From positions 395,847-459,846 of the forward strand of contig NZ_CP074435.1 in assembly GCF_019923565.1 (NCBI RefSeq): a DNA stretch of 64,000 nucleotides. The letters are read 5' to 3'. The notes beneath the pieces were generated by a model. That model saw only the letters and a list, made by a program, of their open reading frames with translations, was not told where the DNA came from and ran no database searches. Below, piece by piece: positions 9,880 through 36,226 of the stretch (position 1 is its first letter; every line of letters starts with the position of its first letter). Position numbers and translations under genes: made by a program. Source of the DNA: Candidatus Schneideria nysicola (GTDB taxonomy: Bacteria > Pseudomonadota > Gammaproteobacteria > Enterobacterales > Enterobacteriaceae).

Positions 9880-10857
9880 TTAAATATTACTCTCTAAAGC
9901 TATTAACTGATTTATTAATCCTAATTCATGATTAATTCTACTTCCTTCTTCAAATCGCTTTATTAATATTAATATATTATTTAAATGTTTATAGAAAAAA
10001 AATGTATTCCATCTATTTGATAATATTTTTATTAATTCAAATTGATCGATATTACTGATATCATCAAATAGATATTTTTTATATTTTAAAGCATCCCATA
10101 AAAAATGGTATAACCAACTAAGTTTTATACGAATACTTTTATCTTCTTTTAAGATAAAGGGGAATAATTTTAAAAAATCATTACTTTGTACCGATTGAGA
10201 AAGTATTAAACAAAATTTTGAACGATCTTCCCAATAGATAGATAATAATTTTTGAGCATGGATAGGGGTACCATTACATAAACGTAATGCAATTTTACAA
10301 TCTGTAAGATTATTATTTTTTTTTAACCAATTTAATATAAAGTTTTCATTTGGCGTAGGTAATATCCAACGATGACAACGACTACGTAATGTTAAAGGTA
10401 AGATATAGATTTTTTCACATTCAATAAAAAAACATGTATTATTAGGGGGATCTTCCATTATTTTTAATAATACATTAATTGCATGAATATTTAGAAATTC
10501 TATATACTGTAACCATATTATTTTTTTTTTACCTTGATGCGCATATTTATATAAATTATTAAGAGTTGAACGAATATTATCTATTCCAATATTTTCTTTT
10601 TTACAATTAATTTGATAGCAATCGGGATGAGTTCTTGCTTTCATTAATTGACAATGATTACATAAACCACAAAATTTTTCTTTATAAGATTTTGGACACA
10701 TTAACCATATAATAATATTATATAATAAATAATTTGCACCATTACCTTCTTGACTAATTAATAATAAAGGAGAAGGAGAGTTATTTTTTTCTTTTATACT
10801 ATGATAATATTGAATGATTCTATTATAATACGTATTTAACCAAGGATATTGATTCAT
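9880..10857 (-). CDS. holB: DNA polymerase III delta-prime subunit
   Basis: Clamp-loader subunit that works with delta, tau/gamma and the beta clamp. The 325-residue protein keeps the zinc-binding cysteine cluster around FCGLCNHCQLMKARTHPDC, the ALLKIMEDPP-type helix (here NVLLKIMEDPP) and the SRC motif (LTLRSRCHRW). As in the family, the ATP site is degenerate (SQEGNGANY). An upstream in-frame GTG would add 13 residues and overlap tmk, but ATG 10855-10857 (MNQYPWL) aligns with E. coli MRWYPWL. It lies 17 bases after tmk. Confidence 0.93.
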   Translation of the reverse strand: MNQYPWLNTYYNRIIQYYHSIKEKNNSPSPLLLISQEGNGANYLLYNIIIWLMCPKSYKEKFCGLCNHCQLMKARTHPDCYQINCKKENIGIDNIRSTLNNLYKYAHQGKKKIIWLQYIEFLNIHAINVLLKIMEDPPNNTCFFIECEKIYILPLTLRSRCHRWILPTPNENFILNWLKKNNNLTDCKIALRLCNGTPIHAQKLLSIYWEDRSKFCLILSQSVQSNDFLKLFPFILKEDKSIRIKLSWLYHFLWDALKYKKYLFDDISNIDQFELIKILSNRWNTFFFYKHLNNILILIKRFEEGSRINHELGLINQLIALESNI

Positions 10858-10874
10858 TAGTAACGACTTCCTTC

Positions 10875-11503
10875 TTATGAATTGAACTTCAACCATTTTT
10901 CCATTTTTTCATAAATAGCCGATTCTACCAAAATTTTTGGTTGATTTGCATTAATTACAAAAATACGAGAATCTTTTTTAGCTAAATATTTATAACATAA
11001 TCGTACTCTTTCAAAAAAATCCATTGATTCTGATTCTATACGATCTAATTCTCTAATAGAACGAATTCGAGATAATCCTACCAAAGGAGGAACATCTAAA
11101 TAAAGTATAAGATCAGGTTGACAATTTTCTAATATTAGTTTACTTAAAATTTTAATTAAAGTAGGATGAATTTTTCTTCCTCCTCCTTGATAAGCTTGAG
11201 AAGACAGTTCATATCTATCACTAAGTACCCATGAACCTTTTTCTATTGCTGGTTTAATCACTTTTTCTATAAGTTGTATGCGTGCGGCATAAAAAAGTAA
11301 TAATTCGGAATAATTAGAAATGGTTTCCTCTTTTTTTTTTCTATAAGTAAATTGCGTAAAGCATCAGCAAAAGGAGTTCCTCCTGGATCTCTTGTTACAA
11401 TGATATCATCAATATGATGATTTTTTAGAATTTTTTTTATTTGTTGAATAGCAGTACTTTTTCCCGCTCCTTCTAACCCTTCAATTACAATAAATTTCCC
11501 CAT
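10875..11503 (-). pseudogene. tmk: Thymidylate kinase, frameshifted in a poly(A) tract
   Basis: Phosphorylates dTMP to dTDP, an essential step with no bypass. The gene is split into two frames. Codons from 11503 give the P-loop GLEGAGKST, the TRDPGGT motif and LRNLLIEKKK. The frame then runs off at a run of ten A residues (coding strand, 11340 to 11331) and stops at 11267. One extra A, or two fewer, restores EETISNYSELLLFYAARIQ followed by the second part: SDRYELSSQAYQGGGR, LDVPPLVG, RIRSIRELDRIE. Apart from this indel the sequence looks conserved. Slippage of RNA polymerase at the A-run could make functional enzyme; a sequencing or assembly error is the alternative. Confidence 0.88.
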
Positions 11504-33637: not shown

Positions 33638-36226
33638 TTATTTTTGTATTTTGTTATTAATCCTTTTTTTTAAAAAATATAACCAATTAAGTGCTTTATG
33701 AGGGGTAAAATTATCCAGATCTAAACGATCGATTAAATTTATAATCGATTTTTCCATAGATTTTTGATAGAAGAGATGATAATGATGTTGACTACTTCTA
33801 TTTTCTTCATATAAAGTATTTTTTTTAGCTAATTCATAAGATTTTTTTCTTGCTCTTTCTATGACATTAGCAGGAACACCAGCTAGAGCTGCCACTGCTA
33901 ATCCATAACTATTGTCAATAGCACCATCTTTAACATTATACATAAAAATTAGAGATTGGTTATGTTCTAATGCATTTAAATGTACATTTTTTATTAGTGG
34001 ATGTTTATTTTGAAGTTGCGTAAGTTCAAAGTAATGTGTAGAAAAGAGAGTCATAGATTGACGTTGAATTAACTCTTCTGCACAAGACCATGCCAAGGAT
34101 AACCCATCATGAGTAGAGGTACCTCTACCAATTTCATCCATTAAAATAAGACTATCTTTAGTAGCATTATTCAAAATATTAGCGGTTTCAGTCATCTCGA
34201 CCATAAAAGTAGAACGTCCAGAAGATAAGTCATCAGATGCACCTATACGAGTAAAAATTTGATCGATAGGACCTATAATAGCTTCATTGGCTGGGACAAA
34301 ACTTCCTATATAACTTAATAATACGATTAATGCATTTTGACGCATATAGGTACTTTTGCCTCCCATATTAGGTCCAGTAATCATTAGCATTCTTTCTTTT
34401 TGTGATAAATTTAATGAATTAGGTATAAATGTTTGATTTTTTATTTTTTGTTCTATAACGGGGTGACGACCAGCTATAATTTTTATACCTGTCTCTTTGC
34501 TAATATTAGGACAAACATAGTTTAAAGATATAGCACGTTCCGCTAAATTACTTAATACATCTAGTTCTGCTAATGAACGTGCACTTCTTTGAAGTGCACC
34601 TAAGTATGGAATAAAAAAATCAAATAATCCATTATATAGTTCTTTTTCAAGAGAAAGGATTTTATCTTGTGCAAGTAGTACGTTTTTTTCATATTCCTTC
34701 AATTCTGGAATAGTATAGCGTTCAAAGTTTTTTAATGTTTGCTTACGTATATAGTAATTTGGGATCAAATGATTATGACTGCGATGAATTTGTATATAAT
34801 ATCCATGTACTCTATTATATGTAATTTTTAAAGTATCTATCCCCGTATTTTTGCGCTCTTTCTTTTCTAAATCGTGTAGATAAGATGTACAATCTCTAGA
34901 TATAGTACGCCATTTATCCAGTTCATTATTATAGCCCGATGCAATTACTCCGCCTTCACGTAATACAGCTGGTGGAAATTCTACAATAGCTCTTTCTAAG
35001 AGCTGATATAACGATTCAAAATATCCAATATGATATACTATATTTTTCAGATGTGTTTCAGAATAGTTTTTGAACAATTCTTGAATAAGAGGAAATTGTT
35101 TCAAGGCATAACGCATACGCGTAAAATCACGTGGTCTTGCTGATTTTAGTGCAATACGAGAAGATATACGTTCTAAATCCTGTATTTTCGTCAATATTTT
35201 TCTTATTTTGATGAATGTTTCTTGTAGTATCACTATACTCCTTTGACGATGTATTAACATACATCTATTACGAATAGGAGTATGTATCCAACGTTTTAAC
35301 ATACGACTTCCCATGGGAGTTATAGTACGATCAAGAATATCTAATAATGTATTTTGGGTTCCTCCCTGTAAATTTTTAGTTAATTCTAAATTTTTCTGAG
35401 TAGTAGCATTCATTACTATTATATTTTTTTTATTTTCTAAAGATATTGATGAAATATGGGGTAATGAAATACATTGAGTATCCTTAACATATTGTAATAG
35501 GCATCCAGCAGCACATAATGCTATCTTTGCTTTTTCAACACCGAAACCATGTAAGTTATTTGTATTAAATTGCCTATTTAATTGTTTATATGCTGTACTC
35601 AAATCAAATTCCCATATTGGTCGATAACGTATATTTCGATAATTCTCTAAGAAGGTAAACTTTCGTATTGTTTCGGGATAAAGAATTTCAGCAGGATTAG
35701 TGCGTTGCAATTCTGCAACCATATTATCTTGATTATCTATTTCTGATATAATAAAACGACCAGATGAGACATCTAATGTTGCATATCCAAATTTTTCTTT
35801 TTCATACCATATAGCAGCCAGAAGATTATCTTGTTTTTCATCCATTAATGCTTCATCGCTTAAAGTTCCAGGAGTGACAATACGTACTACACGTCTTTCT
35901 ATTAAACTTCCTGCTTTCTTTGAATCTCCTATTTGTTCACAAATAGCTATTGATTCCCCTAACGCAACTAATTTTGCTAAATAATTATCTAGTGCATGAT
36001 AGGGTATACCAGCCATAGGAATTGGTTTCCCATCATATATTCCTCTTTTAGTTAGAGTAATATTAATTAAATTAGAAATTTTTTTTGCATCTTCATAAAA
36101 AAGTTCATAGAAATCTCCCATACGATAAAATAAAAGCATATCGGAATACTTTTTTTTAAGTTGTATGTATTGTTGCATACTAGGAGTAGGAGTGTTTATT
36201 TTCTTGTCTTTAAGATATGGTTTCAT
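33638..36226 (-). CDS. mutS: DNA mismatch repair protein MutS
   Basis: Recognises mismatches and small loops and recruits MutL. The 862-residue product (E. coli 853) has the mismatch-binding Phe-X-Glu motif in [11 protein letters not shown] near residue 39, connector and lever domains, Walker [14 protein letters not shown], and the ATPase motifs [29 protein letters not shown] and LFSTHYFEL. The C-terminal tetramerisation region is present. mutH (5.7 kb) and uvrD (19.5 kb) are also intact; mutL lies outside the window if present. It converges on rpsA. Confidence 0.97.

Follow-up and report, generated by a model that had tools for sequence, protein, structure and literature searches.

How might a bacterium that should need thymidylate kinase (Tmk) live with a tmk gene split over two reading frames? 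Such a gene runs from 11503 to 10875 on the minus strand of the window, by which we mean the whole stretch of 64,000 nucleotides analysed here (28.7% GC), in a genome of 572,184 bases that forms one contig and is listed as 99.58% complete. Genome size, base composition and kinship lead us to regard the bacterium as symbiont-like. In window positions, the elements of the locus are:

11267 to 11503, minus strand: N-terminal frame of tmk, 78 amino acids with the P-loop GLEGAGKS, matching Pfam PF02223 over profile positions 1-55
11331 to 11340, minus strand: A10 run (T10 on the plus strand), the meeting point of both tmk frames
11319 to 11330, minus strand: GAGGAAACCATT, immediately 3' of the A10 run, with a Shine-Dalgarno-like GAGG and an ATT codon
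10875 to 11363, minus strand: C-terminal frame of tmk, open over 162 amino acids, matching PF02223 over profile positions 47-185
9880 to 10896, minus strand: holB (delta'), the next gene downstream of tmk, an open frame identified by Pfam, with an in-frame A10 at 10521-10530

The first-pass annotation of this DNA had proposed a thymidylate kinase split at the ten-A tract 11331-11340, and this holds: two frames that both match PF02223 (Thymidylate_kin) meet in the A10 run. By Pfam, the N-terminal piece corresponds to profile positions 1-55 (47.8 bits) and the C-terminal piece, taken from its GTG, to 73-185 (90 bits), the cut-off being 27; in a genome-wide profile search the C-terminal frame matched over 47-185 from window position 11336 (118.6 bits), and positions 1-77 were matched at 47 bits by reading through two stops. 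The match covers the whole profile above the curated cut-off, in two frames rather than in a single open frame for the whole enzyme, and two adjoining pieces of one family, ordered and co-linear along the entire profile, are no product of chance. The frames overlap across the run, the C-terminal one being open back to 11363 with its first ATG/GTG/TTG start at GTG 11261, and the final 20 of the 78 codons of the N-terminal frame lie outside the frame of the family. At the run the N-terminal frame reads GAA AAA AAA AAG and then AGG, and so contains A_AAA_AAG. Past the run the C-terminal frame reads EETISNYSELLLFYAARIQ, which includes the segment LLLFYAARIQ that had been expected there, and the residues of a whole, joined Tmk across the junction would be EKKKEETISNYSELLLFYAAR.

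Is what lies on either side of the junction still an enzyme? The read-through Tmk (209 residues) aligned with all 39 relatives supplied (local identity 41.5-53.4%, shortest match 168 residues), and its best solved structure is E. coli Tmk 4tmk (query 2-206). Its identity to two large-genome relatives (L009 and L030) is 49.8% and 51.4%, where nine unbroken tmk from genomes of 0.3-1.1 Mb reach 42.0-54.0% and 43.9-59.2%, and its halves are alike in identity (50.0 and 58.8%; 50.7 and 51.7%). Judged from these alignments, both halves, which the first-pass annotation had called conserved, match the intact tmk of other reduced genomes in their degree of conservation. The better conservation of tmk in the less reduced relatives G008 (2.0 Mb) and G029 (1.2 Mb), at 62.5-63.8%, counts against a working gene. 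In the 39-relative alignment the stretch that holds the junction varies in length, so gaining or losing one residue at that point should do no harm. Beyond the A10 junction tmk showed no additional stop or frame change, which leaves a single frame change, in an A/T run of at least about nine, in a gene otherwise intact; decay of the gene was considered and is not seen, the halves being conserved and free of any further lesion. A second, intact tmk had been named as the check on this reading, and a profile search of all 572,184 bases found none, so that tmk is a single locus in the genome.

The metabolic setting bears on whether the gene could simply be dying. thyA is intact in this genome, so dTMP is made and Tmk should be needed. 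A tmk match was found in 58 of the 60 genomes surveyed, this one included, and none in the reduced relatives G010 and G033, which have no thyA match either and thus raise the question of their dTTP source. thyA was found in four of the ten reduced genomes (this one, G007, G018 and G021), and tmk occurs without thyA in four others (G005, G006, G030 and G058). From G010 and G033 it follows that Tmk is not universal in reduced genomes, and a bacterium that makes dTMP should still need it. We therefore consider it very unlikely that tmk is a young pseudogene, with dTDP coming from its host, from a partner symbiont or through another kinase: loss of the pathway is possible, as those two genomes out of 60 testify, but here thyA is kept, the halves of tmk are conserved with no additional stop or frame change, and a near relative has kept the C-terminal half (P0001, 2 substitutions in 147 residues).

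Nor is tmk broken amid general breakage at homopolymers. In the ORF layout of the window, examined by eye without a family test for each gene, no split gene other than tmk is apparent, in agreement with the first-pass annotation, which had called this the only coding lesion of the window. The window has 18 runs of at least nine bases, 17 of them inside a kept ORF and one at an ORF border; for the nine-base runs the figures are 15 of 16 within open ORFs and the remaining one at an ORF border. The genome as a whole has 12 A/T runs of at least ten (13 overlapping A10 matches) and no run of 14. The genes at all 12 were inspected, ten pieces together with holB and tmk by Pfam and pheT by eye. Nine of these longest runs are in frame, in rpmF, rpsU, pheT, murI (read from a GTG), engB, smpB, nusA, holB and lipB, and hence the genome is not generally broken at its runs. 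Two are out of frame, those of tmk and pgpA, or at most three if lptA is added. pgpA lies outside the window and is split by the genome's longest homopolymer, T11 (G000:C1:234777-234787; L037:1318-1829); Pfam matches positions 2-87 of the PgpA profile ahead of the run and 84-138 behind it, in different frames.

Two of the other genes deserve a word. In lptA (L043:1440-1620; T10 at G000:C1:376383-376392) the open frame begins at T10, with no ATG/GTG/TTG before 1592, and an ATG with a hydrophobic start sits in another frame ahead of the run; its layout may reflect a third homopolymer frame change, within the signal peptide, or a lost signal peptide. smpB (L041:1055-1543) is an open SmpB-like frame whose N-terminal part has no ATG/GTG/TTG and which may use a rare start codon. 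The idea that the lesions stem from lost mismatch repair is unsupported, given that the MutS and MutL families were matched in open frames of 864 and 591 residues (mutS at window 33638-36226, an ORF of 862 aa, and mutL elsewhere in the genome). Mismatch repair thus seems to be kept despite the homopolymer lesions in the genome.

The lengths of the runs might themselves be misjudged. If the true tmk and pgpA runs differed from those called, through an assembly or base-calling artefact shared by near relatives sequenced alike, both genes would be intact. The clear cases (tmk and pgpA, with lptA as a possible one) do fall in the longest runs (10-11), with frame changes all in one direction, as undercalls would have it, and A11 matches on both strands number 1 here against 2 to 552 in nine other reduced genomes (overlapping matches counted), a ceiling on length. 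We examined the ceiling by synonymous shuffling of 57 of the 62 kept ORFs of the window (56,775 bases), leaving out the two tmk pieces, two short ORFs and one ORF at the window edge. Runs of at least ten are fewer than expected for A (1 against 4.1) and T (0 against 1.7), with 8 and 17 of 200 shuffles, respectively, as low, whereas runs of eight A are in excess (31 against 22.2 expected) and those of nine A slightly so (15 against 11.5). The expectation per 57 kb is about 1.2 runs of 11 and 0.6 of at least 12, or about 1.8 of at least 11; the genome has one run of 11. Such a ceiling fits selection against slippery runs, which has been reported for many bacteria (PMC1088944), and it also fits undercalling. 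For the window by itself, where about 1.8 hidden long runs would be expected, the single broken gene accords with undercalling, but if the expected long runs were undercalled genome-wide, some 16-18 genes should be broken rather than two or at most three (an extrapolation that ignores selection), and all but one of the 16 nine-base runs of the window sit within open ORFs, the exception being at an ORF border.

That artefacts occur is clear from two other genomes of the 60, G014 and G028, which have tmk in pieces and which we used as artefact controls only. In G028 (49% complete) the gene is broken several times. In G014, a 4.6 Mb relative, tmk lies in two frames and no homopolymer of at least six occurs in the accessible part of the stretch (L081, G014:C1:1862200-1863200).

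Proteins of near relatives bear on this question as well. For Tmk, the 8000 candidates sharing the most words were scored, of which 7852 passed, and the best 120 of these 7852 were listed. The closest, P0001 (148 aa), has two substitutions (V to I twice) over the 147 residues that follow its initial Met, and that Met falls at the ATT codon of the window behind GAGGAAACC, just past A10; a start past the run is telling, since a gene caller would hardly begin there with the frame open upstream. The remaining 119 of the 120 matches listed are at most 56% identical to the read-through Tmk, so that no close intact homologue stands among them, the best after P0001 being at 56%. A search with the N-terminal piece returned nine proteins, of which P0121, identical to the piece in the window, may come from the same genome and the runner-up has 54% identity. 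With PgpA as query a single protein came back, P0130 (113 aa, a cluster of 4 sequences). It carries 2 substitutions over these 113 residues and ends in the out-of-frame tail FFFFQQIIGMRF, identical to that of the pgpA product of this genome; on sequence grounds this tail is the best sign that such a lesion may be inherited. The comparison is one of proteins only, and for Tmk it marks the annotated start of the protein rather than the run itself. At the DNA level, the search for near relatives gave a single match in the genome contigs (a Gastranaerophilales contig, 43%) and none among plasmids (near mode) or viral contigs, collections that may omit very near genomes. The combination in P0001 and P0130 of the same breaks with substitutions of their own argues for lesions that are real and inherited, and speaks against an artefact, which we accordingly hold to be unlikely, if by no means negligible.

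The start of P0001 also invites another reading, in which the poly(A) frame change turned one tmk into two overlapping genes, the second starting at ATT here and at Met in the near relative; we give this history very little credence. The enzyme would then consist of two chains, the 78-residue N-terminal piece and a C-terminal piece started separately after GAGGAAACC. GAGG does lie five bases ahead of the ATT codon, and the annotated start Met of P0001 is at exactly that position, but the latter may merely reflect the choice of a gene caller, and the N-terminal piece bears 20 unrelated residues. Moreover, ATT is a rare start codon and, to our knowledge, no two-chain Tmk has been described. A working two-chain Tmk thus seems to us highly improbable.

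Taking these lines together, we lean somewhat towards the reading that tmk has an inherited frame change at A10 and would still be a working gene, rescued mainly by polymerase slippage. RNA polymerase would slip backward in the A10 run and add a nucleotide in part of the transcripts; the slipped transcripts would give whole Tmk of about 209 residues and the remainder the 78-residue stub. Slippage in the run would supply some complete Tmk, which is probably why the bacterium tolerates the split gene. In the A/T runs of Buchnera, insertions of a single base are the prevailing change and become exponentially more frequent as runs lengthen, up to 11 nt; 157 insertions are counted against 70 deletions, yet the rates printed are 1.30e-5 and 1.75e-5 per nucleotide (PMC5574713), and hence the preference for insertion is not clear-cut. 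For frameshifted poly(A) genes of aphid and ant symbionts, the proportion of corrected transcripts is given as 12-50% (PMC5009743), and as 30% in a figure cited in another paper (PMC3017870). Against slippage stands a reporter study in which E. coli RNA polymerase prefers poly(T) and shows almost no poly(A) rescue, rescue being 5-10% for T7/T8 and activity undetectable below seven T or eight A (PMC6260861).

Slippage had been the proposal of the first-pass annotation, and it stands in part: the single tmk, its conserved halves, the pgpA lesion, the breaks in relatives and the precedents support it, whereas the dnaX-type A_AAA_AAG and the sole tRNA-Lys had been overlooked. With this heptamer in the broken frame and only one tRNA-Lys (UUU) found, rescue could be ribosomal. 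The RNA would then be a faithful copy, and ribosomes would either make a -1 shift at A_AAA_AAG or slide along the AAA codons. The zero-frame codons GAA AAA AAA AAG AGG of tmk contain a heptamer of the X_XXY_YYZ type, as in dnaX, at which a -1 shift would give the identical residues EKKKEET, and the one tRNA-Lys, UUU, among the 36 tRNAs found (ARAGORN) is the condition named for E. coli, where A_AAA_AAG is the dnaX site and is prone to shifting owing to weak pairing between AAG and the sole tRNA-Lys (PMC5009743). The zero frame of pgpA likewise reads U_UUU_UUC, ribosomes are described as sliding along consecutive AAA codons (PMC4363877), and a predicted downstream fold begins 6 nt past the tmk run. 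This fold is, however, weak (z -1.72, equalled by 12 of 200 shuffles, ensemble frequency 0.025) and has its inner stem at a distance of 30 nt, none of five Shine-Dalgarno-like motifs lies within 30 nt upstream of the run, and at least two AAA codons are, according to the same source, normally passed without sliding (PMC4363877), tmk having two before AAG. The tRNA set may itself be incomplete: tRNA-Ile(GAU) and tRNA-Ala(UGC) are absent among the 36 tRNAs found in G000, where the search may have missed them. Nor is the heptamer a sign of selection: where an AAA run is followed by G, any frame change with this polarity creates it automatically. A mainly translational rescue is in our judgement quite unlikely. 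In our view polymerase slippage is the chief route; ribosomal shifting, possibly a second one, would lead to identical residues and may raise the yield.

How does the locus compare with known systems? The Buchnera and Blochmannia precedents invoked in the first-pass annotation were indeed found (PMC5009743, PMC3017870). The poly(A) slippage rescue described for these symbionts (Tamas et al., 2008, via PMC5009743, PMC3017870, PMC4389277) resembles the present case in the AT-rich reduced genome, in the frame change within an A/T run of 10-11 in an otherwise intact, conserved gene, and in a lesion apparently common to related strains. It differs in that we deal here with another genus, with tmk and pgpA, with few long runs and with a case known from sequence alone. 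Eight homopolymer frameshifts in otherwise intact genes are reported for Blochmannia vafer (PMC3017870), and dnaX, dnaG and pth among them are a close likeness, as replication or protein-synthesis genes broken once in a homopolymer that the authors treat as functional; across six Blochmannia the count is 4 to 8 frameshifted genes per genome (Table 1, PMC4389277). With E. coli dnaX (PMC5009743) tmk shares the zero-frame heptamer of the -1 site, A_AAA_AAG, and the one tRNA-Lys UUU found here, but it has no upstream Shine-Dalgarno-like stimulator and a weak downstream fold, and in tmk it is the long product, rather than the short one, that a shift would yield. With dnaX of Thermus thermophilus, where slippage occurs on nine A (PMC1088944, PMC5009743), it shares the coding-strand A run, mixed transcripts being a feature of T. 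thermophilus; there, in contrast, slippage acts on an in-frame template and produces the shorter protein.

Symbiont genes that are intact but for a homopolymer frameshift are thus already known, and the points of interest here are the essential gene and the sister-lineage signal. The word tmk has no occurrence in the main text of PMC3017870 or of PMC4389277, and in the related literature searched, which omits most subscription papers, 'thymidylate kinase' is absent from the 12 papers listed of 89 matches and 'pgpA' from the 12 listed of 52. If real, the case is one of a DNA-precursor enzyme made from a gene that does not encode it in one frame, with pgpA in the same state, and it would carry the Buchnera and Blochmannia phenomenon into nucleotide metabolism and into a further reduced lineage. 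It would also offer a clean test of polymerase slippage against a ribosomal -1 shift, because the heptamer is self-made and both routes lead to the same protein.

Downstream of tmk, the genes that follow holB look, by eye and by the E. coli gene order, like tatD and ptsG. Should the polymerase slip at tmk, the holB message, with its in-frame A10 at 10521-10530, should be partly out of frame. Outside this lineage, two short metagenomic N-terminal pieces of Tmk, P0122 and P0126, have their first 57 residues in common and then continue in different frames, another break in tmk.
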